In this document: positions 19,331 to 51,929 of the stretch, piece by piece
Layout of the letters: every line of letters begins with the position of its first letter
Position numbering within the stretch: position 1 is the first letter of the stretch
Assembly: GCF_963855985.1 (NCBI RefSeq)
Contig: NC_087109.1
Location: forward strand, 3,058,001-3,122,000
DNA: 64,000 nucleotides
Direction: 5' to 3'
Origin: Ostrinia nubilalis
Lineage: Eukaryota; Arthropoda; Insecta; Lepidoptera; Crambidae
Notes under the pieces: generated by a model
The model's database searches: none
Seen by the model: only the letters and a program-made list of their open reading frames with translations
Told to the model about the DNA's origin: nothing
Program-made: the position numbers and the translations under genes

Positions 19331-19451
19331 TAATATACCAGAGACAAATGGAGGATTTGACCTACACTTTTATTACTATCACTGACGGGACTGATGTTGA
19401 TTATGTTGGTGACCATGACAAGTTTAAAACAATACACTTTTTTTCACGATA

Positions 19452-20657: not shown

Positions 20658-20665
20658 TTTATTAT

Positions 20666-26261: not shown

Positions 26262-26602
26262 TTTACACGTGTTTTCATGCGATGGCCGAATATTGATATG
26301 CGTCACTATAAGATGCTGTTAATTATTACGTAACAACTTAATGCTTCGAGTACGGAGATTCCAGACACAATTGATTTTCAATTGTTGTGGACCACGATCG
26401 TGGTCTTAGGGACTGGACGTATTAAGACAGAAAGTCGCTTAAGTAGAGACTGAATAAATTAATAACCGACTTGGTATTACATGGATCTCACAACTTTTTA
26501 CCGTAGAACAACTGAGTTGCGAGACTTGGTTTTTTTGACAAGTATTGTTTTTGATGGGACTAATGTTACGTAAGCAACCCGTCCGTCAAGTTGCAAATCC
26601 TA

Positions 26603-26699
26603 TCCTACTAAATATTATATGCGAAAGTTTGTGTGGATGTCTGGATATTTGTTACTCTTTCACGCAAAAACTACTGGTGAAGCCGCGGGCAAAAGCTAG
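26603..26699 (+). mobile_element. Short Lep1-type Helitron (97 bp), unit 1 copy
   Basis: Starts TCCTACTAAATATTATATGC after host A and ends GGGCAAAAGCTAG before host T. Most of the body is deleted. The same insertion stands at 43275-43371 in unit 2, so it predates the duplication. Confidence 0.85.
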
Positions 26700-26836
26700 T
26701 GATTTTATATTTTGAGCTAAATTTTATACTGATGGTTGAATTTACCCAGATTAACTGTATACTAATATGAAGATGTTACTATAATACACATAAAAGGATA
26801 ATAAAATAAAAAAAATAAAGATCATAAGTACATATT

Positions 26837-29154
26837 TTAATTAATCAAATTAGCGATAGCAAACTGTAGTAACACGACAGCATACGTAGTGATGAGTGAA
26901 AGAAAAGTCAGAGGCATTCTGGCATCCAAAGAGAACATATTAAATATTTTCATTTTTGAAGTAATTCTGATTAGATTGATGACATTGTTGTGAAATTCCT
27001 TCTCTTTTGCTGAAAAGAAAATAAAATCGTTGAACAGTCAGTTGGTCATAATTGATTTTTTATTATAACTTGTAAATGGACTTAACTTAATAAATTACTA
27101 AACTAAACTAGCCCATCTTTCATTGTCTACCTTACCTTAACACCGATCTAAAACACTGAAGATTTTTTTAATTTAAAAACTACGGGGATATTGTTCTATG
27201 AGTAAGTTGACCTACTGATCTTTATTGATTTTGTTATAGGTACTGTTACTAACCTGAACATTGACCACGTATCATCCCTATCAAACTGTTAACCTTCGCC
27301 TCATTCAGAACAATATAAAATCTTTGTAACTGTACACACAATATTGTTATTATGAGAAAATTCCTGAATATCCATAAAGCGGTGAATAAAGTGCTGAAGG
27401 GAGTCACCCGCTGGAAAAAAAATGCTTGTATTAGAATGAGATTGGAGAGTCCAAACCAGGGATGTTATGGATATCCGTAACCATAACCAAAACTTTCGGA
27501 TATCCGAAATAAAAAAAATATATCCGAAACCATAACCGATTCAAAAGTTTCGGATAGTTTCGGATGTAGACAATTTAATTAGATTTCTGTATAGCATTAT
27601 ATTTAAGGGCATAACAGCCTGATTTACCTTTTTTTTTGAAGGGACGCGCGCTGGTAGCTTGAGAAGCTTTTCTAGCTTCACCGGGCAGAGTGGCGAGTAC
27701 AGATACCTTTAGGTATAAATGCCATTTATAGCCCGGTCTGTGAGCACGTAGAATTTTGTCCAATGACTACCAATGACCCCAAACTACCCATCCTTATCGC
27801 TCGCGCGTAATTATATTGCTGTCGCGATTGTGCGACGGGCACCCGCAGTGAGTGTGCGAGCGCGACAGCAACATTATTACGTTTAATTTTTTATTTTTTT
27901 ATTACTTTTTATTCTATGTAAAGTGTGCGGCCATGAATGAACCATGTTGGACAACTATTGGAACTTGCATTCTAAAGCACAGATTTCCGTAACCGTAACT
28001 AAACTACATATCCATAACATCCCTAGTCCAAACACCACAATAAATAAACAATTAAATTAGTAACTTACTACTGTGGAGAATTTCAGAATATCTATAGCAC
28101 CTTGTATATAAAAGAGAGAGTGAATAAAACTCTCTATGTAGTAGACAAAAATCTGGAAAATGCATAAAAATACAATTTTACAGATATAATTATGTTGGCA
28201 GTTGCCTTTATTCTAAATCTAAAAGAAAAGGAAAAGTACCACCAATCTATAGTATCATTACCGAATGAAGGAATGATAGAATAGAAAGAATAAAATAGAA
28301 TAGAAAAATATTTATTTGACTCAATAATATTGATATCATTATAGTACCTACTGATAGTGTCCGCTTATGTTTGATGAAAAATGTTGTAATGAATTCTATA
28401 TTATAAACTTATCTATACAAATTCTTACCATCAACTGAAATACTCTTTTTGAAGTATCATACACTTCTAAAATTTGACTAAGAGATGCCAATTTATGCTT
28501 CGAAAAAAGATCTCTATCTTGATCATTTGCAGTACTTTTGAAATCTAAAATCCATTGGTCTAATGCAATTTTGAGAAGTGAGATTATTTGAGTGATATAA
28601 ATGATATTGGTATCAAATACGATAAGAATTACCATAGTACATACTGTTGTTGTCAAACTTTTTCCATATAAAATAATGTATATGACAACATTAAATAAGT
28701 ACATAGAGGCAATGAGAAATATGTATATCCAACTATACCTTAAGACAACTTTGCCGTGAATCAAAATTTGGGAATTGTAAAATTTTTGGAACGTCAAGAC
28801 GAGTCTAATATTGTCTTGCCTAAACTTCATGCAAGCGTAAAAGTTTAGAATTAAGCCAGAAGTGTAGAATACAAAATTGAAAACGTCAATGATGTAGAAG
28901 AACGAGATTATTTTTGAGTAATTGTCCAATAAGATGTGAAGGTAAATAACAATGCTGGTTGCAGTGATACACAAGACACATAATATTGTGGAATATAAAC
29001 TTTTGGGGGTGATAAAGTTGTCGCGAATGGTGTACTTTGAAAAGAAATGAATGGACTGCAGCAAATCCAAAGGCCTGAAGAACGCCTTTGTATCTTCGTT
29101 GACAATATTGTAAATTAAATATTCACTTTGTCCAATGTCTATCCTGCGAGACAT
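26837..29154 (-). CDS. Gustatory receptor D (7tm_7 family), intact, 4 exons
   Basis: Same family and architecture as A-C but a separate lineage. Exons on the minus strand are 29154-28429, 28152-28069, 27410-27254 and 27009-26837 (726, 84, 157 and 173 nt, phases 0-0-1), giving 379 residues. I chose ATG 29154 (MSRRIDIGQSEYL), which aligns with the starts of A-C. An upstream in-frame ATG at 29172 would add six residues. The end reads T-Y-A-V-V-L-L-Q-F followed by AIANLIN and stop. Splice sites are canonical. Intron 2 contains a hAT-like element, intron 3 none. The start faces receptor E 974 bp away (divergent pair). D and D' differ at only about four of 242 residues in exon 1. Confidence 0.9.
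27457..28025. mobile_element. hAT-like element in intron 2 of receptor D
   Basis: Termini CAGGGATGTTATGGATATCC and ...CATAACATCCCTA are flanked by an exact 8-bp duplication, GTCCAAAC (27449-27456 and 28026-28033), typical of hAT. GGATATCCG motifs recur near the left end. A partial family-P palindromic MITE (27731-27880) is nested inside. The orthologous insertion is at 44126-44609. Confidence 0.85.
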
Positions 29155-29172
29155 GTTCGAGTCAAGTGTCAA

Positions 29173-30127
29173 AATAATTGATCAAAGGACATTTTTAATT
29201 TGTTAATGTCGCTGACTGAAAATAAAAGCTAGTGGTGAGCCTCGGTGGTTCCTTGTAATCGTAGATTTTCTATCGATAGTAAAAGCTAAATCAATAAAAA
29301 GCCCCTGACTATTGTAGGAATAAAGGTATCAGTTTGTAGCCGACTAGGCCGCAGCAGCAGACGACATGTCGCCGCGACACGTCACTTTCTATGTATTTCT
29401 GTGAAATATTTTTAGGCGACGTGTCTATAATAAAAACACAGAATGTACTTTTTTAAGTTGCCTGAAGACACTGAGAGGTAAATAAGTGGTTAATATTATT
29501 CATGCTTAATCATGTATTTTCTCCGCCATTTTCTGCAGTTTGGCACCTCACGTCACACATCATTTTACCGAAGTCAGCCATAAAATATGGCTTCGGCGCA
29601 GTACCGATCACTGACGTTTGTTAACAAAATGGTGCTTGACTCTTAAGACAAGCTAAATTACACCATATTGTTAATGACATTGAGCATACATTTTTTTAAA
29701 TACCTTCGAAGTAAACCTTCTGCACGTAGTACTTATTATTATTCTGTGATAATACTAAAAGCTACTCATTTCGATGAAATGTTTTCGTATTGTGAATCAA
29801 GAAAGCCATCACGGTAAAAAATGCTAGTGCCTCATTATTTAGAAGTGCGCAATTAAATAAATGAAGGTTTTATTTATTGTGAACATTAATGTAATGAATG
29901 GAATTCTGCACTTATCGGCTCGATCGGTGTTATTTTCTTTGAGTGTGTCACAACGTATGTTGTTTGAAACTTTTTTGTTCACATTATTTAACTCAAAAAA
30001 TAAAACAACAAAAGTTTAAAGGGGCTTTTGAAACAACTATTTTCTAAAAGACTGTGCACCAGGACGTTAAGGATAGAAACAAGATTTAATTTTGGACTAA
30101 AGATATAAAGGATCTACGTAAATCCTG
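29173..30127. promoter_or_regulatory. Divergent intergenic region between receptors D and E
   Basis: The 955 bp separating two head-to-head receptor start codons must hold the upstream control sequences of both if they use simple 5' promoters. It includes a GC-rich segment with repeated GACATGTCGCC / GACACGTC / GCGACGTGTC elements (29360-29430) and the conserved block CTTCGGCGCAGTACCGATCA. No TATA box or experimentally known site can be assigned. The matching region of unit 2 is 45757-46718, and part of it also occurs inverted at 49386-49708. Confidence 0.4.
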
Positions 30128-30681
30128 ATGAATACTTGCAAAGTGATATTTCTGAAATCTCGTGCAAAACATTCCAATAACTACCTGGATAAAGATGTGC
30201 AACAATTCTTACTGCCTTTGCGCATACCATTCATTATCACGTTCCAATCAAAATATTGGATTCACGACAACTTCATCACACGTCATAGTTACATTTACAA
30301 TATCATTGCCTTTTTCCTCGAAGTAGCGTTTTTAATTTTAAAGTATTACATCCCGCCGTCTGATCAACTTTACGGTGTTGATGCTTTTGATTTAATTCTT
30401 ATATTCGATATGATTGATTTTATTACTTTAATTTTCACTTCGATGTTATCTTTCGTTGATAACTTATTAAAATTCTCCTTCAATATACAACTTGTGGTTA
30501 AAATACAGGCTGTAAGGCGGTCTTTTATATACTGCAATCATAGTATTAGAAAACTTACAATACTCAATTGGCTTATTCTTAGTTTCCATACATTATTTTT
30601 CGCTGTCAGTGAGTTATGTTTCGTGGGTAAAGAATATGACGTAAAATATTTAATTCTGGATACTGTATCTATATTTTACGA

Positions 30682-33112
30682 CTAGCGGCCGCCCGCGACT
30701 TCGTACGCGTGGACCTCGTTTTACTCCATTAGGGGTGGAGTTTCGTAAAATCCGCTCTTAGCATCTATAGCGCATACATTTTAAATTTCAACTCTCTTAC
30801 TTTAAACACATAGGACTTTCATAATATAAACTTCCAACCCTCCTTTTATCTCCTTAGCCCCCGTAGTTGATTTATAATGATACATTTTCAGTATATGTAC
30901 CACCACCACCACCACCATTTCAGCCATAGGACGTCCACTGCTGAACATAGGCCTCCCCCAATGCTTTCCATGTTGATCGATTGGAAGCGGCCTGCGTCCA
31001 GCGCTTCCCTGCTACCTTTACGATGTCGTCGGTCCACCTTGTAGGTGGAAGTCCCACGCTACGTTTTCCGGTACGCGGCCTCCATTCCAGAACCATTCTG
31101 CCCCATCGGCCATCAGTTCTGCGTACTATGTGCCCTGCCCATTGCCACTTCAGCTTGCTAATCCGTCGGGCTATGTCAGCGACTTTGGTTCGTTTACGGA
31201 TCTCCTCATTTCTGATTCGATCTCGCAAAGAAACACCAAGCATAGCCCTCTCCATAGCACGCTGTGCAACTGAGCTTCTGTATAAGGATAAGGCCTATAG
31301 TGAGAGGCCACGTTTCCGAGCCATAAGTTATCACTGGTAACACACATTGGTTATACACTCTAGTCTTCAGGCATTGAGGTATTTTGGACGAAAAGATGTT
31401 GCATAGTTTCCCGAACGCTGCCCAGCCGAGTTGGATTCGACGATTGACCTCCTTCTCGAAATTGGACCTACCTAGCTGGATCGTTTGTCCAAGGTAGACA
31501 TACCTACTTGTCGACAATCTCGAGAATTGAGCTCCCAACTGAAACTGGGTAGGGCGCAACATGGACATTCGACATAAGCTTCATTTAGTCCATGTTCATC
31601 CTCAGGCCTACCTGTTGGGAAAATCGATTAAGGTCTTCGAGCATTGTGCCAAGATCTTCCAACGATTCTGCCATGACCACAATATCGTCGGCAAACCGAT
31701 GTGTACACAATACCACAGTGTACCGAACAGTATATGTACACCTCCACAATATCTAGAGATCATAGTGAGCATACATTATAACTTTCAAGTCTCTTACTTT
31801 AAAAACCGAGGACTGCAATACAAACTTCTAACCCCCTTTTTAACTCCCATAAGGGTTGAATTTTGCAAAATTTCGTCTTAGTGACTACCTACGTTCTAAA
31901 AGGAGGTGTATACTTACAGCGACAATTTAGTGTCCTTTGAATTAATTCTGTGCCTTTGATCACCCACGGATACGATGTCCTGGGTGAGCCAAGTGGACTC
32001 TAGTTAAATTATTATTTTAATGTCCTTTGATCATCTACAAACAAAATATCACACCTCCTCTGAATAGTCACATGTCCAATTGTTGTACTACATATTTTGT
32101 TTTGTAACATTTTTGATATTTTCTAAAAACCGCAATAAACAAATTGGACATGTATGTGACAATTCAGAGGTATGATTTATTTATAGGTGATCAAAGAACA
32201 CTAAAAAATAATTTAACTGGAGTCCACTTTGATCATCTTGGTGATCAAAGCCAGGTGGAATAGACCATTAACCCCTGAGAACTCTTTTGAGACTTGTAGT
32301 TTCTGAGACTTCGTGATGAGTGAGTGAGTCACTTACTCATTCAATGACCTTTCTTTCTACTAAAATTATACGTACCTATAGTAATTATCATTAAAATCAA
32401 ATAAGTAAGTACCTACCAACCTAAGTAATTAAAATAAAGACCCTACCAAAAAAATAACAAATTACATACAGAAAATAAAAACGAAGTAATTCTTATCCTA
32501 TTTAACTACAATCGCCCACGCGCCCATCCCATTTGTCCGCCACTGAACCGTACCCTAATATTCATCTCGGTAGATGGCGGCACATAGTAAGAATTTGCAA
32601 GGAAGTTTGTAAAAAGTCACTAATTAACACTTTGATTTGCTCGTTTAAACACAGTGAATGATTCAAATAGGTACATACAGTGAATGGTTCAATTACATAA
32701 AATATCTTTATTTATTAAATTTACAATATTATTTACGAACAGCGTTATTCATGTAATATTTAGTTACTAATTTACTAATGATGTCGATAGATGGCGTTTG
32801 ACAGCTTTGCCTTCATGAATATTTACGTACCTCAAAAATTTTTGTCAGGCGCAAGAAGATTTTAACCAATTACGATAGATGGCGCTTTTCCACGTCTTAT
32901 GAAAATCCCAAATATTTTACGGGACCCTATTTTTTTCCAAAATAAAATTTAGCCTATGTTACTCGTGAGTTATGTAGCTTTCGAATGGTGAAAGAATTTT
33001 TAAAATCGGTCCAGTAGTTTTTGAGCCTATCCATTACAACTAAACAAACAAACAAACAAACAAACAAACAAACAAACAAACAAAGTTTTCCTCTTTATAA
33101 TATTAGTGTAGA
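30682..33112 (-). mobile_element. 2.4-kb non-autonomous Helitron in receptor E exon 1
   Basis: On the minus strand it begins TCTACACTAATATTATAAAG and ends with the GC-rich hairpin then CTAG. It is inserted between A and T with no duplication. Removing it restores exactly the exon sequence seen in F (TTTACGATTTTACAATT). It contains a (CAAA)n tract at 33041-33084 and a nested RTE fragment at 30901-31727. No Rep/helicase domain is encoded. Confidence 0.9.
30901..31727 (-). mobile_element. RTE-type LINE fragment nested in the Helitron
   Basis: Minus-strand sequence of an endonuclease-reverse transcriptase of RTE type. It runs from the F-A-D-D active-site block (near 31695) through a YVYLGQTIQLG block to the C-terminal ISKLKWQWAGHIVRRTDGRW, RWTDDIVKVAGKRW and AYVQQWTSYG. 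Frames are shifted between about 31210 and 31570. A 12-bp duplication, CAGTATATGTAC, flanks it (30889-30900, 31728-31739). 5'-truncated. Confidence 0.8.
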
Positions 33113-33324
33113 TTTTACAATTATCTATGAGTTCAGAATATTGGCGTTATTAAGAAACACTTTAAATCTGTGGGTAGAGGAGTCAAAAGCGTGCAAATTA
33201 CTGGAAACCATTGATGAAGGTGACGTCATTGTGTATTCAAGTGACTGGGATGAAATGTATAAAGCTTATTGTTGCTTGGCTGATGCAATATTTGCTTACA
33301 AAAAAGTAATGTCTATTCCGGTGA

Positions 33325-33640
33325 GTTTATTCTCAGACAGAGCACAAGGAAGAAATAAAATCGCTGACATAGCCCAACGAATTAGCAAGCTGAAGTGGCA
33401 ATGGACAGGGCACATAGTACGCAGAACTGACGGCCGATGGGGCGACTAGGTTCAGGAATGGAAGCACGTAATGGCAAGCGCAGTGTGGGACGTCCACCCA
33501 CAAAGTGGTTCTTATAAAATTGCAGGAAGGCGCAGGATGCAGGCCTAGAGGCCTGTTGGTAGACCAACTGGACAGGAAAATACTGGGGGAGGTCTTTCAG
33601 CAATGGACGTTTTAATTGGCTGAAAGAATGGTGGTGATGA
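33325..33640 (+). mobile_element. RTE-type LINE tail in intron 1 of receptor E
   Basis: Starts right after the exon 1 donor, with IADIAQRISKLKWQWTGHIV coding sequence, then degenerates. It ends in a GGTGATGAT repeat where the LTR retrotransposon landed. The same fragment is in F (about 47500-47790), so it predates the duplication. Confidence 0.7.
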
Positions 33641-33641
33641 T

Positions 33642-34231
33642 TGTCGTAATTTAACTACTTCCGGCATCAAATACTAATGTGTAATGTACATAAGTATGTC
33701 TATAAATCACTAATTAAATGTATTTTTAGTTTATTCATGATCATTATAATTAATATTGTATTTAGTTCATTCAAAGTAACGTTGTGTCATAATTTTACTA
33801 CTTCCGCTATCAAATACAAATATTTAATGTGTATAAATAGTACCATAAATCATTAATTAAATTTATATCAGTCTATCCATAATTATTATAATTAATATTA
33901 TTATAGTATAGTATTTAGTTAATATTAAGTAGTGTTGCTGACTTCCCATTGGCCAAGGCGGGAACATCTTGGTCAATGCGACGTCCGCCGCATTGCGGTA
34001 GGGGAAGTTTCGTTATGGGTAACGGTGTCGAGGAGCGCAGTCTTGCTGCAGAATCGAAACCGTTAACATTATCCTAACCACTGTGTCGGATATCTTGTTA
34101 CCTACTTATTATTGCAATAATTACTGTGCCTAAGTTATAAGAAGAAGTTACAATAAAACAAGAGTGAAGTATTTTCGTGTTCGTATTTCAACAACCCGCT
34201 GTCCTTCTGAATTTATGATAGCTATATCATA
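33642..34231 (+). repeat. 5' LTR
   Basis: Begins TGTCGTAATTTAACTACTTC. It has a TATA box (TATAAATA, 33832-33839) and an AATAAA signal (34152-34157), consistent with a U3-R-U5 layout. It contains a GC-rich hairpin-prone part (CGACGTCCGCCGCATTGCGG). Confidence 0.85.
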
Positions 34232-34940
34232 TCTCAGAAGTGGGATCTGAAAAAAACGCCTGCAAAACGAAGTGTAAGTACCAACATTTTTTTTTTGTCT
34301 TTTCTATCCTGATTATTTCATATTTTACAAAAAGGAGTTTTGATGAACTGTTGTAAGACCGTGATAATGCAAGTTACTTGATGTACTGGTAGATTTTTTT
34401 TTTATATTCGTGCATACCACCACAATTGGTATTGAAAATTAACACGAAGAAAATTTTGTTTTCTTCTTTCCTTTCTATTATTTTTATACAAGTGTTATAC
34501 ACAAATAATGTATATGTACCTACCCAATGAGTATAATAACCAAAATATCACTGGGTTACAATGGTTTCAAGGCTTCCAATATTTTACATTCCTAATGAGT
34601 CTAGACATTTAATTAAGCTATCTGATTTAATTAAGCTATCGCATAATTACATGCTGCATGTCTAGTGATAGTAACTATAAGTATTCGGAGTGAAATATTA
34701 CGTAGGTACGCAGAGTTAATATTAAAACAATTTGTTTTAGTGTTTACTAGAATATGATAATTTCGATTATTTCTAATGTACCCTAGTGTTTTAAGTCGTT
34801 ACACATAAACATAACATAACGTTTTCTGCCCATAATATTGAGTGGTCCAATCGACTTTGCATTTTCAATACGAAGCATAGCTACGTACGTAGTAAGGATG
34901 AATACGGTATTAATATAATATTTCTGTTCCGAGGTGAACC
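34232..34940 (+). other. Retrotransposon leader between 5' LTR and gag
   Basis: About 700 bp of AT-rich untranslated leader. The sequence just after the LTR (CTCAGAAGTGGGATCTG) is the expected place for the tRNA primer-binding site. I could not match it to a specific tRNA. Confidence 0.5.
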
Positions 34941-37900
34941 ATGGGCAAGGATAAAGCCCACCGACGTCGTCGGTCCAAGTCTCGGAAGACGAGGGAACCC
35001 TGCCACCATGCAGCGGTTTCTGATGAAGACCGGAGCCGCAGCCAGTCCAGAGGTCGCTCTCCAACCCGGTCCCCGTTCATCCGGCGTTCAAGACGGAGGA
35101 GGTCGCGCTCGAGGTGCTCACGGCGCTCAAGATCTACTTCAAGGCGGCCAGATTCACGTGAGCATATCAGATTTAATAATTCCAAGGATAGAAGGTTATC
35201 ACCTAAATCAAGATCAAGGTCGAGGTCTAGACTAAACGTGCCGCAATCGCCTGTATCTAATGTAGCTAATACGAATAATAGCAATGATGTCCAGAATATG
35301 TTTTTTCAGAAATTTCTTGATGTAATGAGTAATTTAAAAACTAGTAGCGACAGTGACAAGTTCCCGGTCTTAAATGTTGTACCCGAATTTGACCCTTTAA
35401 ATAAGGAACAGACTGTAGATGCATGGATTCATAAGGTAGATGAATGCGCTCAAATATACGGATGGAGTGATAGGCAGATAGTTCATTACGCGATGTCTAA
35501 GCTTCAGGGTATAGCAAAAACGTGGTATCAGGGGTTACCTTCTCTACTTCATTCGTGGTCCGAATGGAAAATAAAGCTGCGTGAATCTTTCCCAACGAGG
35601 GAAAATTACGCAGAATTATTATCGGAAATGCTAGCCAAACGTGTTCGTTACGGAGAATCTTTGGATCTATATTACTATTCAAAAATGAACCTCTTGAATC
35701 GTTGCGAAATCACAGGTAGACGCGCAGTAGACTGCTTGTTAGCTGGTATTGATGATCGGAATGTACGGGTAGGCGGACAAAGTGCCGAGTTTAATGAACC
35801 TGAACAAGTTCTCAAGTTTTTGAAATCCATTAAGGTAGGACATGATAGAACCAATAACGACGTCGCGAGGAATAGGGACAGGGAAAAACGGAATAATAAC
35901 CCAACTCATTCTAATGATAGAACTGCTAATATCTATCTAAAGTCCAATAATAATAATTTACTATGCTATAACTGCAATGAGAAGGGTCATCCATTTTTCC
36001 GCTGCCCAAAGCCCAGGCTACAATGCACAAATTGCAAACTATTAGGTCACTTAGTCGCGGACTGCCCTAAATCGAAAAATAGTATTGCCACAGACGATAA
36101 GAGTAAAAGCGTGTTAAATGTTGATTACGGGGTCAATACTAGCCTTAAATATAAGATGCCTGCCAAAATCAATAATCAGTTGTTGCATTGTTTAGTTGAT
36201 TTAGGTAGCGAAGGTACTTTGATACGAGTTAGCGAAGCCAAACGGCTACAATTGAAATGGCAGGAAGTAAGTGGCCCATTGCTAAAAGGTATTGCTGATG
36301 CTGCATGCCTCCCTATTGGTTCGTTATATGCAACTGTTGAGATACAGGGGATTACCGAACATAATGTAAACATTCTTGTAGTCGATGACCATATCATACC
36401 ATGTCCCCTCTTATTAGGTCACACGTTTACAGAACGCCCTACCATTAAAATCATAAAAACGGGCACAGATGTGATATTCCAAAAATCTGACCTTTATAGA
36501 ACCGTAAAATGCACACTTGTTAGCTCTAGTGATGTTTTTTTGGGGTCTCACGAAATTAAATCAGTACCAGTAAAAAGTCCAAATGGATATACCGGTACTA
36601 TTTACGTTCATGGTAGTCTAAGGTACGTTCCAAATAGAGAACATTACCTATTACCTGGTGAATACCGGTTAAAAGATGGCGTAGGAAGCGTCCTGATTCA
36701 AAACTTGGGTAATAGTGAATTTAGGTTCAAGTCTGGCGAATTAGTTACAAGAAGTTATTCTATAAACGCCATTAATATTAATTACTTAGATTCTTGCCAG
36801 GATGATTTTGATACTAGTATTAAAAGTGGCGATACATTGACTCAAGGTCAAGAAGCTAAGCTAAAAAAGTTGCTCAACGACTACAAGAACTGTTTTTCGT
36901 CTGGGTTAAAGGATTTGGGATTTACTACAGCCACTGAAATGACTATAGAGTTAACGGACACGGAACCAGTAGTATATCGTCCGTATCGACTACCGTATAA
37001 CGAACGTCAGCAGGTTAAGGATATGGTTCAAGATATGTTAGACTGCGACATCATTAGAGAGTCTAGTTCTCCTTATGCTAGCCCAATAGTATTAGTTAAC
37101 AAGAAATCGGGAGAAAAGAGGCTATGCGTAGACTACCGTGCACTAAATCGAAAAACAAAACGTGAACATTACCCCCTGCCAAGAATTGAGGATCAACTCG
37201 ATAGACTCTCTGGTAGTAAGCTATACATTACACTCGATTTAGCGTCAGGGTACTATCAGATACCTATTGCGGAACAGTCTCGTGAAAAAACTGCGTTCGT
37301 GACCCCGGACGGTCAGTATGAATACAAAAGGATGCCTTTTGGGCTTGTTAACGCACCTTCTGTATTTCAACGTACAATGAATAAAATAGTCCAAAACTCA
37401 CCTGTTCGTGCGTACACAATTGTATATATGGATGATATCCTTATCCCGGCTAGCTCGTTCGAGGAAGGTTTGTTTCGTCTAGAGGAAGTTTTAAAACTAC
37501 TTATGCAAAATGGATTAACGCTCAAACTGGCGAAATGCAACTTCTTCTTTGACGAGATCGATTATTTGGGTTATGAAGTAAGTGCAAATGGAGTAAGACC
37601 TGGTACAACAAAAACTAAAGCGATATCTGACTTCGCTCCACCAACAAACGTTCATGAGGTAAGACGATTTTTAGGGCTCGCCAGCTTCTTTAGAAGGTTT
37701 GTCAGAGGATTCGCGGCTATCGCACAACCATTGACGTCCCTTCTAAAGAAAGATGCTTCGTGGCGCTGGGGCAGTGACGAGTTGGACGCCTTCAATAAAT
37801 TAAAACAGGTACTTGTAGATAGACCAGTGCTAGCGATCTATAATCCAGAATCTGAAACTCAACTTCACACGGATGCGAGCAAGATCGGCGTTGCAGGAAT

Positions 37901-39299: not shown

Positions 39300-39576
39300 A
39301 GTAGGTGACCTAGTTAGGATCATACGTGCGACAACTGGAATCGAGGGACAGTCTAAGAAACTTGAACCTAAATGTAGAGGTCCATACCGTATCAAGAAAA
39401 TACTTCCGAATGACCGATACGTAGTAGAAGACACCCCGATCACACGAAAGGGTAAACGATACGAGGCTATCATCGCGGTAGATAAAATATTTCCCTGGCT
39501 TTCCATCACACAGTCTGTTTCTTCTGATGAGATGTCATCTGATAATGAGAGTCGTAATGAGTCTGATACTTCTTGA
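39268..39576 (+). pseudogene. Integrase C-terminal segment, frame-shifted from pol
   Basis: A 102-codon frame reading VGDLVRI then GPYRIKKIL and RYVVEDTPI, the chromatin-binding-like tail usual in Ty3/gypsy integrases. It overlaps the end of the main frame by 32 nt. The shift sits in an eight-A run, so it is either a recent one-base slip or, less likely, a programmed frameshift. Confidence 0.7.
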
Positions 39577-39653
39577 ATACCTATATTTTTAGGCTTGTTA
39601 CTGTCACTACTAATTAGGCATCCACAACAATTAAGGGTCAAAATTAAGTTTGT

Positions 39654-39896
39654 TGTGCTGGTTAAGGTCATGAACCGGCACAGCAGTCATTATTGCCGGT
39701 AACGGTCAACGTCATGGACCGGGCAACTAACTTAAACACTCTAGTTAAGGTCATGAACTAGATGATCGATAAGCACCCTAGTTAAGGTCATGAACTAGAT
39801 GGTCATTATGTAAGGTTATGATTATGAATGAATGTATATATTATGTCTAAGGATGTGAGGATGAAATATCTGCACTCTAGTTAAGGTTATGAACTA
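39654..39896 (+). ncRNA. Array of hairpins with common loop AAGGTCATG
   Basis: In the 3' untranslated part of the retrotransposon, stems of 5-10 bp enclose the same 9-nt loop AAGGTCATG (AAGGTTATG in one). These are at 39654-39682, 39740-39762, 39778-39798 and 39878-39896. A bulged relative is at 39693-39726. Stem sequences differ between copies, but pairing is kept (CTAGTT/AACTAG in some, TGTGCTGGTT/AACCGGCACA in another). A role in RNA packaging, export or priming is conjecture. Confidence 0.5.
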
Positions 39897-40193
39897 AATA
39901 TTCGTTAAGTAAGGTCATGATTATGAATGTATATAATTGTCTAAGGATGTATAATAACTTGTATAATATGAAATGTAAGTTTGTATGGACATCATTCGGT
40001 AACTAAATCTATGGCTTAATGTACTGGCGTAGGTATTTAGGGAGTATAGAGTATGTATTTAGGAGGGAAAATGAGCATTATTCTAAAATCATTATAGAAT
40101 ACATTATGTAATAAACCTAGTATACATCTAAATGTAATCCAATTTCATGTTTTAAATTAACGAGAGGACTCGTTTAAAGATGGATGGCCGAGT

Positions 40194-40783
40194 TGTCGTA
40201 ATTTAACTACTTCCGGCATCAAATACTAATGTGTAATGTACATAAGTATGTCTATAAATCACTAATTAAATGTATTTTTAGTTTATTCATGATCATTATA
40301 ATTAATATTGTATTTAGTTCATTCAAAGTAACGTTGTGTCATAATTTTACTACTTCCGCTATCAAATACAAATATTTAATGTGTATAAATAGTACCATAA
40401 ATCATTAATTAAATTTATATCAGTCTATCCATAATTATTATAATTAATATTATTATAGTATAGTATTTAGTTAATATTAAGTAGTGTTGCTGACTTCCCA
40501 TTGGCCAAGGCGGGAACATCTTGGTCAATGCGACGTCCGCCGCATTGCGGTAGGGGAAGTTTCGTTATGGGTAACGGTGTCGAGGAGCGCAGTCTTGCTG
40601 CAGAATCGAAACCGTTAACATTATCCTAACCACTGTGTCGGATATCTTGTTACCTACTTATTATTGCAATAATTACTGTGCCTAAGTTATAAGAAGAAGT
40701 TACAATAAAACAAGAGTGAAGTATTTTCGTGTTCGTATTTCAACAACCCGCTGTCCTTCTGAGTTTATGATAGCTATATCATA
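40194..40783 (+). repeat. 3' LTR
   Basis: Matches the 5' LTR at all but one position. It is followed directly by the GAT-rich intron sequence of receptor E and then exon 2 at 40840. Confidence 0.85.
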
Positions 40784-40937
40784 TGATGATGATGAAGATG
40801 TTATACTGCTGTTTACTAATAATATTGTTTTCTTTTCAGATCGTGATTTATATATTTTTTTCCTTCATGCAGACATTACAACTCTTTAAAGTCGCACTTA
40901 TTTTTGCTGATAATAGAGAAACATATCTAGTAAGTAA

Positions 40938-41083
40938 TGCCCGTATTCACAAACATTACCATGAGGTCTCACAGTGCGCGTGGACATACTGGGTGTCACA
41001 TGTACCACTCACAGAGCTCTATTAAACGCTGTGCGTTCTATTTGCTGATTCACTTAAGCAAGCATCGTTTGTGAATACGGGCG
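40938..41083. mobile_element. MITE in intron 2 of receptor E
   Basis: Terminal repeats GCCCGTATTCACAAAC and complement, flanked by TAA/TAG. It begins eight bases after the exon 2 donor. Same family as 15385-15527, and shared with receptor F. Confidence 0.7.
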
Positions 41084-41439
41084 TAGGTGACAACAATATT
41101 ATTGAGATGGTTGGTTTCTGATTGAATAGATTTCTTAACAAATTATTTGTCTTTTTTCAGGTGGAATCAATTTCCTTTGTTTTATGGTCTTTTAAATATC
41201 TGATTTGTATAGGATTTTTGGGACTCGAGAGTGAGAAATTCAACATACTAATCACTGAGATTAAGGAGATGTGTTTGGGTGTTATTAGTAATAGCACTTG
41301 TTCAGGTTTGATTAATTTATTATTTTAAGTTTATTTAATTACTTACATTTTGTTTTGAGTATGTCTGATTGTTCAATCACAAGGAACAGAGAACATGGTT
41401 TAGTCATTATTCGAGTCAATTTGGAGCCAGTAATTATCC

Positions 41440-41610
41440 GGTACCTAACCATTTACGCAGCCAACGCAGCGTGGGACGTCCACCCACAAGGTGGACCGAC
41501 GACATCGTAAAGGTAGCAGGAAGGTGCTGGACGCAGGCCGCTACCAAACGATCAACATGGAAATCATTGGGGGAGGCCTATGTTCAGCAGTGGACGTCCT
41601 ATGGCTGAAA
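41440..41610 (+). mobile_element. RTE-type LINE tail in intron 3 of receptor E
   Basis: C-terminal RTE coding sequence (QRSVGRPPTRWTDDIVKVAG, then AYVQQWTSYG) lies between exons 3 and 4. The same insertion stands in F at 48421-48590. Confidence 0.75.
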
Positions 41611-42078
41611 TGATTAAAGTCTGGATGCAAGTGGCCAGGGACAGAAGTCGGTGGAATGTTGAAGAGGAGGCCTATGTTCGAAGGCGAACCCTAAAGGCTG
41701 ATATAGATTGATAGATAAATTGATTCAGTGCCCTGGAAAGGACTTACTAATTAAGAATTTGAATTTTACAGAACACCAAAGGAAGCTGTGCAAGAACATC
41801 GTCAGGAAGATGAGGACCTCCTTCACGAAGTTCTCAGCATACACCATGTTTGATGTGGGACCTGGCCTATTCCTTACCTATTGCTACCTTCTGGCCACTT
41901 ACATGATTGTGGTGTTGCAATTCCATGTTCTATAGTATTATGTTCTGTAATACATCTACCTTTTCAAATTATTAGTGTTTGTTTCATTCCAAAGCATTTT
42001 AGGACTTTTTATGAAATAACCTTAATAATGTCATCAAATAGTGTGTCCATCAATTTTTTTTATAAAAAGCGAAAGGTC

Positions 42079-42584
42079 TGACTGACTCACTCACCCATCA
42101 CGAAATCTCAGAAACTACAAGTGCTAGGAGTCTCAAATTTTGCATGGGGGTTCCTTTTAGAACGTAGGTGATCACTAAGAAGGGATTTTACGAAACTCCA
42201 CCCCTAAGGGGGTAAAACGGGACCCACGCGTACAAAGTGTGATAACGTTCTTACGAATGGTACAACAATACAGGTAAATTGTGCGACGTTTGGTTCGTGA
42301 AAAGGTGAACACTAGAATATTATCATAGAGCGGCTCGTTGTTCTGTTACAAGTTTTTTTTTTATCCACAACGAGGAATCTCTTGGCCTGTATCTCACCTG
42401 ATGGTAAGTGATGATCAGGCCGAAGATAGAAGCGAGCTTCACCCGGAAATTGGCTATTTGCATGCCAGTTGTGGTGATTTGTTATTTTACAACGTAGGTG
42501 CTCACTAAGACGGGATTTTCCAAAATTCAACCACTAAGGGGTTAAAACGGCGTCCACGCGTACGAAGTTACGGGCGGCCGCTAG
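42079..42584 (+). mobile_element. Helitron at the junction of the two duplication units
   Basis: Plus-strand Helitron sequence (GAAATCTCAGAAACTACAAG ... AAAACGGGACCCACGCGTAC). It ends in the GC-rich hairpin and CTAG at 42581-42584. It is interrupted by about 250 bp containing another dispersed repeat (GGCCTGTATCTCACCTGATG, near 42384-42405). The end of duplication unit 1 (42152) lies inside it. Confidence 0.65.
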
Positions 42585-42861
42585 TATCATAATAATAATA
42601 TAATCTATTTGAGTGCCTAATGAATGAAAAATCTACGATAATAAATTATTTGTGCTGCTAAAAAAATACACATCATCATAACTGCGCAAACTTTCTTAGT
42701 TATATTGTTGTATTTACTCTGATTATACTTACGCTATCAAAGACTGTTGCATGTCAGAAGAAAAAAGTAGAGAAACAGCTAAGGAACGGTGATTTTGTTC
42801 TAATCTACTTACTAATTTCTGTTTTTATTGATTTTTGACTCATTTCAGTTTTTATTGATTA

Positions 42862-42911
42862 CTAGCTTTTGCCCGCGACTTCACCCGCGTGAAATTTAGT
42901 TTGTTCTGGGT
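42862..42911 (-). mobile_element. Truncated Lep1-type Helitron at the left edge of unit 2
   Basis: Plus-strand CTAGCTTTTGCCCGCGACTT, then normal Lep1 sequence, up to TTCTGGGTTA. There it switches abruptly to duplicated-unit sequence. The break marks the left duplication boundary. Confidence 0.7.
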
Positions 42912-43274
42912 TACACGTGTTTTCATGCGATGGCCGAGTCTCAATATATTTATATAAAACGTTGTGTAAAAATAAGATGCTGTTAATTATTACGTAACAA
43001 CTTAATGCTTCGAGTACGGAGATTTCCAGATACAATTGATTTTCAATTGTTATGGACCACGATCGTGTTCTTAGGGACTGGACGTATTAAGACAGAAAGT
43101 CGCTTAAGTAGAGACTGAATAAATTAATAACCGACTTGGTATTACATGGATCTCACAACTTTTTACCGTAGAACAACTGAGTTGCGACTTGCGAGACTTG
43201 GTTTTTTTGACAAGTATTGTTTTTGATGGGACTAATGTTACGTAAGCAACCCGTCCGTCAAGTTGCAAATCCTA

Positions 43275-43371
43275 TCCTACTAAATATTATATGCGAAAGT
43301 TTGTGTGGATGTCTGGATATTTGTTACTCTTTCACGCAAAAACTACTGGTGAAGCCGCGGGCAAAAGCTAG
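43275..43371 (+). mobile_element. Short Lep1-type Helitron (97 bp), unit 2 copy
   Basis: Same 97-bp insertion and same flanks as 26603-26699, from TCCTACTAAATATTATATGC to GCTAG. Confidence 0.85.
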
Positions 43372-43506
43372 TGATTTTATATTTTGAGCTAAATTTTATA
43401 CTGATGGTTGAATTTACCCAGATTAACTGTATACTATATGAAGATGTTACTATAATACACATAAAAGGAAAATAAAATAAAAAAATAAAGATCATAAGTA
43501 CATATT

Positions 43507-45738
43507 TTAATTAATCAAATTAGCGATAGCAAACTGTAGTAAAACGACAGCATACGTAGTGATGAGTGAAAGAAAAGTCAGAGGCATTCTGGCATCCAAA
43601 GAGAACATATTAAATATTTTCATTTTTGAAGTAATTCTGATTAGATTGATGACATTGTTGTGAAATTCCTTCTCTTTTGCTGAAAAGAAAATAAAATCGT
43701 TGAACAGTCAGTTGGTCATAATTGATTTTTTATTATAACTAGTAAATGGACTTAACTTAATAAATTACTAAACTAAACTAGCCCATCTTTCATTGTCTAC
43801 CTACCTTAACACCGATCTAAAACACTGAAGATTTTTTTAATTTAAAAACTACGGGGATATTGTTCTATGAGTAAGTTGACCTACTGATCTTTATTGATTT
43901 TGTTATAGGTACTGTTACTAACCTGAACACTGACCACGTGTCATCCCCATCAAACTATTAACCTTCGCCTCATTCAGAACAATATAAAATCTTTGTAACT
44001 GTACACACAATATTGCTAGTATGAGAAAATTCCTGAATATCCATAAAGCGGTGAATAAAAAGCTGAAGGGAGTCACCCGCTGGAAAAAAAATGCTTGTAT
44101 TAGAATGAGATTGGAGAGTCCAAACCAGGGATGTTATGGATATCCGTAACCATAACCGAAACTTTCTGATATCCGAAATAAAAAAAAAATATCCGAAACC
44201 GTAACCGATTCACAATTTTCGGATAGTTTCGGATGTAGACAATTTAATTAGATTTCTCTATAGCATTATATAATTTAAGGGCATAACAGCCTGAATTACC
44301 TTTATAAATGCCATTTATAGCCCGGTCTGTGAGCACGTAGAATTTTGTCCAATGACCCCAAACTACCCATCCTTATCGCTCGCGCGTAATTATATTGCTA
44401 TCGCGACTGTGCGACGGGCGCCCGCAGTGAGTGTGCGAGCGCGACAGCAACATAATTACGTATAAATTTTAATTTTTTTATTACTTTTGATTCGATGTAA
44501 AGTGTGCGGCCATGAATGAACCATGTTGGACAACTATTGCAACTTGCATTCTAAAGCACAGATTTTCGTAACAGTAACTAAACTACATAAAATATTTATA
44601 ACATCCCTAGTCCAAACACCACAATAAATAAACAATTAAATTAGTAACTTACTACTGTGGAGAATTTCAGAATATCTATAGCACCTTGTATATAAAAGAG
44701 AGAGTGAATAAAACTCTCTATGTAGTAGACAAAAATCTGGAAAATACATAAAAATACAATTTTACAGATATAATTATGTTGGCAGTTGCCTTTATTCTAA
44801 ATCTAGAAGAAAAGGAAAAGTACCACCAATCTACAGTATCATTACCGAATGAAGGAATGATAGAATAGAAAGAATAAAACAGAATAGAAAAATATTTATT
44901 TGACTCAATAATATTGATATCATTATAGTACCTACTGATAGTGTCCGCTTATGTTTGATGAAAAATGTTGTAATGAATTCTATATTATAAACTTATCTAT
45001 ACAAATTCTTACCATCAACTGAAATACTTTTTTTGAAGTATCATACACTTCTAAAATTTGACTAAGAGATGCCAATTTATGCTTCGAAAAAAGATCTCTA
45101 TCTTGATCATTTGCAGTACTTTTGAAATCTAAAATCCATTGGTCTAATGCAATTTTGAGAAGTGAGATTATTTGAGTGATATAAATGATATTGGTATCAA
45201 ATACGATAAGAATTACCATAGTATATACTGTTGTTGTCAAATTTTTTCCATATAAAATAATGTATATGACAACATTAAATAAGTACATAGAGGCAATGAG
45301 AAATATGTATATCCAACTATATCTTATGACAACTTTACCGTGAATCAAAATTTGGGAATTGTAAAATTTTTGGAACGTCAAGACGAGTCTAATATTGTCT
45401 TGCCTAAACTTCATGCAAGCGTAAAAGTTTAGAATTAAGCCAGAAGTGTAGAATACAAAATTGAAAACGTCAATGATGTAGAAGAACGAGATTATTTTTG
45501 AGTAGTTGTCCAATAAGATGTGAAGGTAAATAACAATGCTGGTTGCAGTGATACACAAGACACATAATATTGTGGAATATAAACTTTTGGGGGTGATAAA
45601 GTTGTCGCGAATGGTGTACTTTGAAAAGAAATGAATGGACTGCAGCAAATCCAAAGGCCTGAAGAACGCCTTTGTATCTTCGTTGACAATATTGTAAATT
45701 AAATATTCACTTTGTCCAATGTCTATCCTGCGAGACAT
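43507..45738 (-). CDS. Gustatory receptor D' (7tm_7 family), intact, 4 exons
   Basis: Duplicate of receptor D. Exons on the minus strand are 45738-45013, 44736-44653, 44079-43923 and 43679-43507 (726, 84, 157 and 173 nt, phases 0-0-1), giving 379 residues. The start and the alternative upstream ATG (45756) are as in D. Amino-acid differences from D are few: I for L before RYSW, N for S and Y for C around LTTTV, and K for R before VFQLM. A few more lie in exon 3. The end T-Y-A-V-V-L-L-Q-F is conserved. Splice sites are all canonical. It faces F across 980 bp, as D faces E. Confidence 0.9.
44126..44609. mobile_element. hAT-like element in intron 2 of receptor D'
   Basis: Same insertion as 27457-28025, with the same GTCCAAAC 8-bp duplication (44118-44125, 44610-44617). 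It is shorter by about 85 bp next to the nested family-P MITE (44320-44461). Confidence 0.8.
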
Positions 45739-45756
45739 GTTCGAGTCAAGTGTCAA

Positions 45757-46718
45757 AATAATTGATCAAATGACATTTTTAATTTGTTAATGTCGCTGAC
45801 TGAAAATAAAAGCTAGTGGTGAGCCTCGGTGGTTCCTTATAATCGTAGATTTTCTATCGATAGTAAAGGCTAAATCAATAAAAAGCCCCTGCCTATTGTA
45901 GGAATAAAGGTATCAGTTTGTAGCCGACTAGGCCGCAGCAGCAGACGACATGTCGCCGGGACACGTCACTTTCTATGTATTTCTGTGAAATATTTTCAGG
46001 CGACGTGTCTATAATAAAAACACAGAATGTACTTTTTTAAGTTGCCTGAAGACACTGAGAGGTAAATAAGTGGTTAATGTTATTCATGCTTAATCATGTA
46101 TTTACTCCGCCATTTTCTGCAGTTTGGCACCTCACGTCACACATCATTTTACCGAAGTCAGCCCTATGGCTTCGGCGCAGTACCGATCACTGACGTTTGT
46201 CAACAAAATGGTGCTTGACCCTTGAGACAAGCTAAATTACACCATATTGTGAATGACATTGAGCATACATTTTTTTAAATACCTTCGAAGTAAACCTTCT
46301 GCACGTAGTACTTATTATTATTCTGTGATAATACTAAAAGCTACTCATTTCGATGAAATGTTTTCGTATTGTGAATCAAGAAAGCCATCACGTGCCATCA
46401 CTATAAAAAATGCTAGTGCCTCATTATTTAGAAGTACGCATTTAAATAAATGAAGGTTTTATTTATTGTGAACATTAATGTAATTAATGGAATTTTGTAT
46501 ACTTATGGGATCGATCGGTGTTATTTTCTTTGAGTGTGTCACAACGTATGTTGTTTGAAACTTTTTTGGTCACATTATTTAACTCAAAAAATAAAACAAC
46601 AAAAGTTTAAAGGGGCTTTTAAAACAACTATTTTCTAAAAGACTGTGCACCAGTACGTTAAGGATAGAAACAAGATTTAATTTTGGACTAAAGATTTAAA
46701 GAATCTACGTAAATCCTG
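45757..46718. promoter_or_regulatory. Divergent intergenic region between receptors D' and F
   Basis: Counterpart of 29173-30127 with small differences, for example GTCGCCGGGACACGTC for GTCGCCGCGACACGTC. No core promoter motif could be fixed. Confidence 0.4.
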
Positions 46719-47938
46719 ATGAATACTTGCAAAGTGATATTTCTGAATTCTCGTGCAAAATATTCCAATAACTACCTGGATAAAGATGTGCAACAATTCT
46801 TACTGCCTCTGCGCATACCATTCATTATCACGTTCCAATCAAAATATTGGATTCACGACAACTTCATCACACGTCATAGGTAGTTACATTTACATTATCA
46901 TTGCCTTTTTCCTCGAAGTAGGGTTTTTAATTTTAAAGTGTTACATCCCGCCGTCTGATCAACTTTACGGTGTTGATGCTTTTGATTTAATTCTTATATT
47001 CGATATGATTGATTTTATTACTTTAATTTTCACTTCGATGTTATCTTTCGTTGATAACTTATTAAACTTCTCCTTCAATATACAACTTGTGGTTAAAATA
47101 CAGGCTGTAAGGCGGTCTTTTATATACTGCAATCATAGTATTAGAAAACTTACAATACTCAATTGGCTTATTCTTAGTTTCTATACATTATTATTCGCTG
47201 TCTGTGAGTTATGTTTCGTGGATAAAGAATTTGACGTACGATATTTATTTCTGGATACTGTATCTATATTTTACGATTTTACAATTATCTATGAGTTCAG
47301 AATATTGGCGTTATTAAGAAACACTTTAAATCTGTGGGTAGAGGAGTCAAAATCGTGCAAATTACTGGAAACCATTGATGAAGGTGACGTCATTGGGTAT
47401 TCAAGTGACTGGGATGAAATGTATAAAGCTTATTGTTGCTTGGCTGATGCAATATTTGCTTACAAAAAAGTAATATCTATTCCGGTAAGTTTATTGTCAG
47501 AGCACAAGGAAGAAATAAAATCGCTGACATAGCCCAACGAATTAGCAAGCTGAAGTGGCAATGGACAGGGCACATAGTACGCAGAACTGACGGCCGATGG
47601 GGCGACTAGGTTCAGGAATGGCAAGCGCAGTGTGGGACGTCCACCCACAAAGTGGTCCTTATAAAATTGCCGGAAGGCGCAGGATGCAGGCCTCTACCAA
47701 CTGGACAGGAAAATACTGGGGGAGGTCTTTCAGCAATGGATGTTTTAATTGGCTGAAAGAATGGTGGTGATGATGATGATGATGATGATGATGAAGAAGA
47801 TCTTATACTGCTGTTTACTAATAATATTGTTTTCTTTTCAGATCCTGATTTATATATTTTATTCCTAAGTGCAGACATTAGAACTCTTTAAAGTCGCACT
47901 TATTTTTGCTGATAATCAAGAAACATATCTAGTAAGTA

Positions 47939-48048
47939 ATGCACGTATTCATTCACAAACATTACCATGAGGTCTCACAGAGCTCTATTAAACGCTGTGC
48001 ATTCTATTTGCTGATTCACTTAAGCAAGCATCATTTGTGAATACGGGC
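47939..48048. mobile_element. MITE in intron 2 of receptor F
   Basis: Shortened copy of the CGCCCGTATTCACAAAC-ended MITE, with a 4-bp internal repeat (ATTC) in its left end. Orthologous to 40938-41083. Confidence 0.65.
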
Positions 48049-48420
48049 GTAGGTGACAACAATATTGAGATGGTTGGTTTCTGATTGAATAGATTTCTTA
48101 ACAAATTATTTTTCTTTTTTCAGGTGGAATCAATTTCCTTTGTTTTATGGTCGTTTAAATATCTGATTTGTATAGGATTTTTGGGATACGAGTGTGAGAA
48201 ATTCAACATACTAATCACTGAGATTAAGGAGATGTGTTTGGGTGTTATCAGTAATAGCACTTGTTCAGGTTTGATTAATTTATTATTTTAGGTTTATTTA
48301 ATTACTTTCAATTTGTTTTGAGTATGTCTGATTGTTCAATCACAAGGAACAGAGAACATGGTTTAGTCATTATTCGAGTCCATTTGGAGCCAGTAATTAT
48401 CCGGTACCTAACCATTATTT

Positions 48421-48590
48421 ACGCAGCCAACGCAGCGTGGGACGTCCACCCACAAGGTGGACCGACGACATCGTAAAGGTAGCAGGAAGGTGCTGGACGC
48501 AGGCCGCTACCAAACGATCAACATGGAAATCATTGGGGGAGGCCTATGTTCAGCAGTGGATCCTATGGCTGAAATTATTAAAGTCTGGAT
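48421..48590 (+). mobile_element. RTE-type LINE tail in intron 3 of receptor F
   Basis: Same RTE C-terminal remnant as in E (41440-41610), with a few differences near the end. Confidence 0.7.
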
Positions 48591-49195
48591 GCAAGTGGCC
48601 AGGGACAAAAGTCGGTGGAGTGTTGAAGAGGAGGCCTATGTTCGAAGGCGAACCCCCTAAAGGCTGATATTAGATAGATAGATTGATTCAGTGCCCTGGA
48701 AAGGACTTACTATTAAGAATTTGAATTTTACAGAACACCAAAGGAAGCTGTGCAAGAACATCGTCAGGAAGATGAGGACCTCCTTCACGAAGTTCTCAGC
48801 ATACACCATGTTTGATGTGGGACCTGGCCTATTTCTTACCTATTGCTACCTTCTGGCCACTTACATGATTGTGGTGTTGCAATTCCATGTTCTATAGTAT
48901 TATGTTCTGGGAGCACAAGTAAACCATAGTTAATAAATCTACCTTTTCAAATCATTAGTGTTTGTTTAATTCCGAAGTATTTTAGGACTTTTTATGAAAT
49001 AAAATTAATAATATCATCAAATAGTGTGTCCATCAATTTTTTTTATAGCAAGCGAAAGGTCTAACTGACTCACTCACTCATCACGAAATCTCAGAAACTA
49101 CAAGTGCTAGGAGTCTCAAATTTTGCATGGAGGTTATGTTATTATGATGATGATGATGGCGATGATGATAATGATGATGTCAATGATGTTGTAAT

Positions 49196-49385
49196 AGGTG
49201 CCCAAAAATCCCGAGGTCCCGGGTTCGATTCCACCAGGGGCAACATTTTCCACTCGAATTGGTTGGGCTTTTTCTAAATCCACCCGGCCAGCTGCCACTA
49301 TCTATCTAAATCTGCTTATCTTATTCTTATTCTCATCTTATTTTAAAAATCCCCTACAGACTTTTAGTCGGCTGATAGTAGCACA
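49196..49385 (+). mobile_element. tRNA-like SINE fragment
   Basis: A B-box-like GGTTCGATTCC (49221-49231) follows CCGAGGTCCC. The body then reads ATCCACCCGGCCAGCTGCC and CAGACTTTTAGTCGGCTG. The A box is lost. It is preceded by a GAT-rich repeat (49141-49195). Confidence 0.5.
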
Positions 49386-49708
49386 GAATAATAATAAGTA
49401 CTACGTACAGAAGTTTTACTTCGCGAAGGTATTTAAAAAAAATGTATGCTCAATGTCATTAACAATATGGTGTAATTTAGCCTGTCTCAAGAGTCAAGCA
49501 CCATTTTGTTGACAAACGTCAGTGATCGGCACTGCGCCGAAGCTATAGGGCTGACTTCGGTAAAATGATGTGACGTGAGGTGCCAAACTGCGGAAAATGG
49601 CGGAGGAAATACATGATTTAGCATGAATTATCATGAATAATATTAACTACTTATTTACCTCTCAGTGTCTTGAGGCAACTTAAAAAAGTACATTCTGTGT
49701 TTTAATTA
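49386..49708 (-). repeat. Third, inverted copy of the D/E intergenic segment
   Basis: Reverse complement of about 46010-46318 (and 29443-29750), with scattered differences. Shared blocks include AGTACTACGTACAGAAG, CACTGCGCCGAAG and AAGTACATTCTGTGTTTT. It may be a rearranged fragment of the duplicated unit, or all three may be copies of one unrecognised repeat. Confidence 0.6.
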
Positions 49709-51155: not shown

Positions 51156-51395
51156 TAGTTCTTTCGTTTCAGCCGAAAGACGTCCTGCGCCGCTCGCATC
51201 CAGGCACTTCCTGCGACCTTCCCCAAATCGTCGGTCCACCTAGTGGGAGGCCTGCCCACGCTACGTCTTCCGGCTCGTGGTCGCCACTCAAGAACTTTAC
51301 TACCGCAGCGGCCATCAGCTCTACGAGATATGTGCCCCGCCCACTGCCACTTGATTTTAGCGATTCTGTGGGCTATGTCAGTCACTTTGTCCTCC
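51156..51395 (-). mobile_element. RTE-type LINE C-terminal fragment
   Basis: The minus-strand frame carries MTDIAHRIAKIKWQWAGHIS, then RRSVGRPPTRWTDDLGKVAG. It ends towards TTTCGTTTCAGCC on the plus strand. Nested in the 2.8-kb hAT-like element. Confidence 0.75.
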
Positions 51396-51929
51396 TGCGT
51401 CTTTCGTCCTCAATTAGCGTAGTAGGGATCAATCTTCTACTTTGAACTTGAGGAGGGTAAGCGGAAACATGGCGGTCAACTCCTCAGATAGTCAAGTACA
51501 AAGATGTCCAGAAGCAGCATATGAAAAGATACTAAATGAGCCCTCTCAAATCACAATGGGAAGGTTTGGCAGCACAGCACCTAGAATGGTGGGAGATTGT
51601 GTTGTGTAGAGGCGAGTCCGCGAATTCAACGAGCAGCGCACAACTGAATTCGACGCAAAACGCGATGATGTAAATCCCGTCCATCTGCCGCCATTCACTA
51701 TAATTATGTTGGCGGCGGGTAATTACTCTCAATGTGCGAGGAGTTTGCCGCGAAGATCGGCTATGTAAGCCATCTTCGGGCGCACCAGCGCCGCTAAGAC
51801 AGCTAAATCGAAGTGGTCACCATGACCGAAATCGGTCGGATGAATCATCATCATCAGTAGGAATCAAAGGCAGGCATTGTTGCAAGTCTCAGATCAAGTC
51901 CAATGCTTGATCTTCTTTTTTTGATTGAA

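Follow-up and report, generated by a model that had tools for sequence, protein, structure and literature searches.

The 64,000-nucleotide window analysed here, from Ostrinia nubilalis (contig NC_087109.1, positions 3,058,001 to 3,122,000 of the forward strand; coordinates below count from its first letter), is a cluster of predicted insect gustatory receptor (GR) genes in which one gene pair is present in two copies. At the left are the minus-strand paralogues A, B and C, at the right the plus-strand gene G, and the pair itself, D (minus) and E (plus), stands head to head at the meeting point of both arrays. The second copy of the pair (D' and F) follows in tandem and starts at the cut 3' end of a Helitron. 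We tentatively read it as the product of error-prone repair, in which a copy of the unit was placed in a broken Helitron end, a reading that falls somewhat short of being probable. Of the four genes that make up the two pairs in this assembly, D and D' are open, and E and F have both lost their normal frame.

Two collinear copies of a receptor gene pair

The duplicated stretch measures about 6.2 kb without the insertions specific to unit 1. Its main features are as follows.

26263-42152: unit 1, likely the parental copy, with two insertions that unit 2 lacks
42911-49135: unit 2, likely the daughter copy, with cut elements adjoining both edges
26837-29154, minus strand: D, exons 29154-28429, 27410-27254 and 27009-26837; 351 residues, open, GT/AG introns, motif TYAVVLLQF
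43507-45738, minus strand: D', exons 45738-45013, 44079-43923 and 43679-43507; 351 residues, open
30128-41935, plus strand: E, exon 1 30128-30681 and 33113-33320 (split by a Helitron), exon 2 41161-41305, exon 3 41772-41935; normal frame broken
46719-48897, plus strand: F, exons 46719-47484, 48124-48268 and 48734-48897; normal frame broken
27449-28033 (unit 1) and 44118-44617 (unit 2): older insert in intron 1 of D, with the 8-bp GTCCAAAC at both ends
30682-33112, minus strand: 2431-bp Helitron in exon 1 of E, TC...CTAG, between A and T
33641-40784, plus strand: long terminal repeat (LTR) retrotransposon of the Ty3 type in intron 1 of E, not in unit 2

The two units align in three blocks, with 96 mismatches in 4318 bases, 10 in 500 and 42 in 1321, or 148 in 6139 (2.4%) overall. 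An agreement of 6.1 kb at 97.6% identity in one order is beyond chance, and the collinearity claimed in the original prediction is thus borne out. So is its division of the insertions into shared and private ones. Common to both units are a 97-bp Helitron (26603-26699 and 43275-43371, identical), the GTCCAAAC-flanked insert, whose flanking copies start at 27449 and 28026 in unit 1 and at 44118 and 44610 in unit 2, and a repeat at 29427-29754 and 46011-46333. The segments that had been named RTE tails and a miniature inverted-repeat transposable element are present as repeated segments, to which no class is assigned. The repeat between D and E, about 330 bp long in each unit, also has an inverted copy (89-91%) at 49376-49709, about 240 bp to the right of unit 2.

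The Helitron at 30682-33112 and the LTR element at 33641-40784 are found in unit 1 only and account for most of the size difference between the units. The empty site of the former is preserved in F at 47262-47291, exact over 30 bases. Compared with this site, the element shows 5' TC, a 3' CTRR end, insertion between A and T and no target duplication. The LTRs of the second element are 99.83% identical over 592 bp, and this one difference corresponds to an age of about 0.3 million generations. The element carries a single open gag-pol reading frame of 1452 residues (34941-39299).

With the Heliconius rate given in the consulted portion of PMC5854123 (2.9e-9 per site and generation), the corrected divergence of the units, 2.45%, translates into about 4.2 million generations. 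This age is rough, since noncoding divergence is patchy and either gene conversion or allelic sequence could produce such patchiness. Its variance-to-mean ratio is 2.0, a value as high being reached in 0 of 2000 permutations, and an identical run of 394 columns is equalled in one of 2000. When the first 68 bases are excluded, the ratio is reached by 1 and the identical run by 8 of 2000 permutations. Divergence is lowest at unit-1 positions 26463-27495 (3 differences in 700 noncoding columns versus 105 in 3313 elsewhere), which is possibly a gene conversion tract.

The patchy divergence of 2-3% could also be allelic, as could the differences in insertions, if the assembly had placed two divergent haplotypes of one locus end to end. 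We consider such an artefact improbable. The units overlap at their joint by 3 bp, unlike the long overlaps used by assemblers, and the window contains no N. Moreover, comparison revealed no similarity of the junction to either flank, though such similarity is expected from collinear haplotypes.

Anatomy of the inner junction

The units are separated by 758 bp, which comprise the remainder of one Helitron (H, 42153-42584), an unmatched stretch (42585-42861) and, from 42862, the minus-strand 3' end of another Helitron (h3).

42079-42584, plus strand: H, composite Helitron at the right end of unit 1, made of a piece at 42079-42238, other sequence and a second 3' end at 42485-42584
42585-42861: unmatched stretch of 277 bp, no similarity elsewhere in the window
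42862-42913, minus strand: h3, cut Helitron 3' end that lacks about 34 bp internally, as judged by eye
49062-49135, plus strand: counterpart of H in unit 2, truncated at 49135

The original prediction placed the right end of unit 1 inside a Helitron spanning 42079-42584. Helitron sequence is indeed there, but it forms a composite of two pieces rather than one element. The first piece lacks roughly its last 16 bp on the 3' side; about 240 bp of other sequence follow, and then the second Helitron 3' end. Within H, 84-bp segments are 84.5% identical, and the layout is as expected from read-through of a 3' end. The stretch 42585-42861 gave no match in a search against the window with expectation values (E) up to 0.01, and its scores against both flanks are within those of shuffled sequences.

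At the other side of the gap, h3 terminates with 3' CTAG followed by T, similar to two h3-type copies, and has lost its 5' end. Its last three bases, TTA, are also the first three of unit 2, and the overlap is no longer than that. A Helitron is therefore cut at the left edge of unit 2, as had been proposed, but it runs to 42913 and does not end exactly at 42911. The name Lep1-type used for it is a label of the original prediction. The window has three copies of the 10-mer TTCTGGGTTA, two in h3-type Helitrons (12945 and 53874) and one directly at the joint (42904), and none of its reverse complement. After TTCTGGGTTA, the h3-type relatives continue with TTATAAA, while the unit starts with TTACACG; in unit 1, the sequence at the left edge is AATTTACACG. 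TTA at the joint, with no longer homology in the flank comparisons, is what microhomology-mediated end joining leaves. From 27 bp inside the joint, 18 nucleotides of unit 1 (26290-26307) match poorly with 34 nucleotides of unit 2 (42938-42971), and this patch could be a trace of error-prone copying. A candidate short interspersed nuclear element at about 49200-49300 was rejected: its tRNA-like box is visible by eye only, and neither Rfam (41900-50500) nor ARAGORN (whole window) found anything.

Origin of the second unit

Unit 2 starts where the minus-strand 3' end of h3 stops and ends inside the cut copy of H, whereas H in unit 1 continues past the point matching 49135. Since both interrupted elements lie at its edges, unit 2 looks like the daughter copy. 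On the simplest reading, the flanks of unit 1 are native and unit 2 is the insertion. The single-copy locus would then have been flanked on its right by 42153-42913, and the break would have fallen within h3, some 0.76 kb downstream. It would have been filled by copying the unit from 26263 to a stop inside H, and the copied end would have been sealed to the sequence that now starts at 49136. The Helitron and the LTR element in E and a 4-bp insertion in F would all be later than the duplication. Repair copying into h3 explains the polarity in one event, with loss of the remaining h3. Helitron-like sequence was located with 14 seeds of our own choice, and the absence of any such patch from 49136-53796 is counted in support of repair.

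Several observations weigh against this reading. No trace of the remaining h3 was found from the end of unit 2 up to 53796, so that its loss must be assumed, and the single-copy state was not seen. Among 20000 random joints in the window, 6.5% show microhomology of at least 3 bp, which makes TTA weak support by itself. The counterpart of TTCTGGGTTA was left unaligned by MAFFT, and the match is based on the exact 10-mer search. No template for the 34-nucleotide patch was found, the longest match elsewhere being 10 nucleotides (median of 11 for 100 random 34-mers). Finally, H and h3 show a weak likeness over their 3'-terminal 23-30 bases or so, where 15 of 23 bases agree, and 42555-42584 is 83% identical over 30 bases to a further copy of the h3 type (E 0.005).

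The same TTA joint would result from an ordinary tandem duplication by end joining, in which 26263 was joined to the inside of h3 and a separate deletion to the right of unit 2 later took the rest of H, 42585-42861 and h3. One new joint suffices for the duplication, and the discontinuity at 49135 would be the deletion. This course of events is unlikely, though it has to be reckoned with. It needs two independent events, and no remnant of 42153-42910 is present to the right of unit 2 in a search of 49134-50000 against the window, although the deletion would explain that as well. Alignment scores of 42253-42480 and 42585-42861 against 49136-52000 are also within those of shuffles. The joint is identical under repair copying and under duplication with deletion, and the present data fit both.

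Crossing over between repeats requires related repeats in the same orientation at both ends of the unit and leaves a hybrid between the units. The original prediction had both ends of the duplication in Helitron sequence and proposed recombination between Helitron copies. Helitron sequence does lie on both sides of the inner junction, but not at the left edge of unit 1, where the nearest patch ends at 25738, 524 bp off. Contact with a Helitron is not by itself a mechanism, since Helitron-like sequence covers 3598 of the 64,000 bases (5.6%) in 17 patches. Unequal crossing over could draw on the two Helitrons at the junction, on the one that ends at 25738 in the left flank and on a short core that Helitron 3' ends in the window have in common. 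However, H and h3 are opposite in orientation and their bodies are unrelated (best local scores of 13-18 versus shuffle means of 12.9-16.8, no similarity). The 524 bp that follow the left-flank Helitron likewise have no detected similarity to the junction (523 bp tested; scores of 19-21 against shuffle means of about 22). There are thus no same-orientation repeats at both ends and no hybrid at the junction; where a hybrid element would be expected, cut ones are present. Because of the orientation, the unlike bodies and the missing flank homology, crossing over is not supported, and we regard it as very improbable.

About 50 bp separate the start of unit 2 from the 3' terminus of a Helitron (CTAG, then T), and capture by read-through past a 3' end is documented in the consulted portion of PMC4778049. 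Transposition of a Helitron with the unit as captured cargo has nevertheless hardly any likelihood here. The presumed source, the left edge of unit 1, has no adjoining 3' end. With up to 4 mismatches allowed, the 19-nucleotide 5'-end motif of the 2431-bp Helitron is found at 10960, 25739, 33094 and 58125, of which only the last lies to the right of unit 2, in the wrong orientation; the 5' end proper to the h3 type was not searched. Repair into a broken Helitron end is the tentatively preferred origin of unit 2.

Fate of the copies and the surrounding cluster

The E-type genes are damaged in both units. In E, the first coding exon is interrupted by the 2431-bp Helitron, the first bases of which supply an in-frame TAG. 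In F, a 4-bp insertion near 46878-46881, 159 nucleotides into the first exon, leads to a frameshift and a stop. E and F are predicted receptor genes, and had been listed as receptors, but this damage had been missed. The lesion of E is not in F and that of F is not in E. With each change unique to one unit, the ancestral E-type gene was probably intact and its two copies were probably lost separately. Splicing around the Helitron could rescue E: the scanned range contains 29 in-frame GT/AG pairs, one of the listed pairs using an AG at the Helitron edge, and the resulting protein would lose 18 residues. With such candidate pairs present, E is broken in its normal frame but not necessarily silent.

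D and D' are both open. By the NG86 method, they differ with a synonymous divergence (dS) of 0.028 (6 differences in 216.7 sites) and a nonsynonymous divergence (dN) of 0.012 (10 in 836.3). For E and F, dS is 0.026 (5.5 in 218.3) and dN is 0.023 (19.5 in 846.7). The dN/dS ratio is nominally closer to one for E and F than for D and D', on small counts. The duplication had been described as creating a new receptor pair. With both E-type frames broken, there is no intact new pair, and the gain is at most one extra D.

A to G and D' are identified as predicted gustatory receptors mainly by motif and gene structure. The last-helix motif TYhhhhhQF, as defined in the consulted portion of PMC9339325, reads TYAVVLLQF in D and D', TYMIVVLQF in E and F, TYTIVLLQF in A and B, TYSIVLLQF in C and TYLIIILQF in G. 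Against Pfam 7tm_7 (PF08395), the spliced proteins score 19.2 (D), 20.6 (D'), 25.6 (A), 15.9 (C) and 17.4 bits (G), and it is the C-terminal end of the profile that is matched in all five. None of the five reaches the curated cut-off of 26.6 bits, which is why the assignment rests mainly on the other two features. The matches of D and D', both under this cut-off, have E of 8e-4 and 3.1e-4. Exon-1 reading frames alone gave no match to 7tm_7 in any of five cases. Protein searches for relatives of D with residues 200-351 (131 candidates) and 1-200 (263 candidates) returned none at E <= 0.001, and the PDB search gave two matches only, at chance level (E 0.24).

A, B and C are three further D-like genes on the minus strand (7782-9680, 15691-17516 and 18263-23598) with a three-exon layout like that of D; the reading frames of A (353 residues) and C (350 residues) are complete. 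G is an E-like gene on the plus strand (56968-61270) with three exons and 350 residues, open; over a stretch of 185 residues in exon 1, its identity to E is about 35%. Farther to the right of unit 2, a 280-bp segment (52753-53032) matches its neighbour (53261-53532) both directly (81%) and in inverted orientation (85%).

Lepidopteran non-autonomous Helitrons, including Lep1, are described with 5' TC, 3' CTRR and insertion between A and T in the consulted portions of PMC4038834 and PMC3789558. The 2431-bp Helitron of the window fits these end features, with CTAG at its 3' end. Both the Helitron types and the receptor types are in keeping with a lepidopteran origin. GR duplication with pseudogenisation is a kind of event already known. 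In Heliconius, copy-number variation and pseudogenisation of GRs are reported in PMC3732137 (consulted in part), where recent duplicates and clade-specific pseudogenisation or loss resemble the present case; that loss series concerns intronless GRs with copy number taken from reads, whereas here the genes have three exons and the junction is resolved in sequence. In Spodoptera, the consulted portion of PMC9339325 connects GR clusters with SINEs as the enriched transposon class and, on the basis of enrichment statistics, proposes unequal crossing over. Growth by tandem duplication, transposons as the proposed cause and the mixture of pseudogenes and near-identical copies are alike in both; here, by contrast, a single junction is read at base level and resembles end joining into a Helitron. 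No title among those listed from the open-access literature mentions a GR duplication with a Helitron junction.

What the locus offers is a fairly young duplication with a readable and well-resolved junction, which points to end joining into a transposon end, in contrast to the unequal crossing over suggested in that part of PMC9339325. One half of the duplicated pair is frame-broken in both copies (E and F) and the other half is open twice (D and D'), and the pair is likely ordinary gene birth and death in progress. More doubtfully, receptor genes may arise by short-range templated repair, in which a break at a Helitron end is patched with kilobases from the adjacent receptor pair; the Helitron would then be the wound and not the recombination partner.

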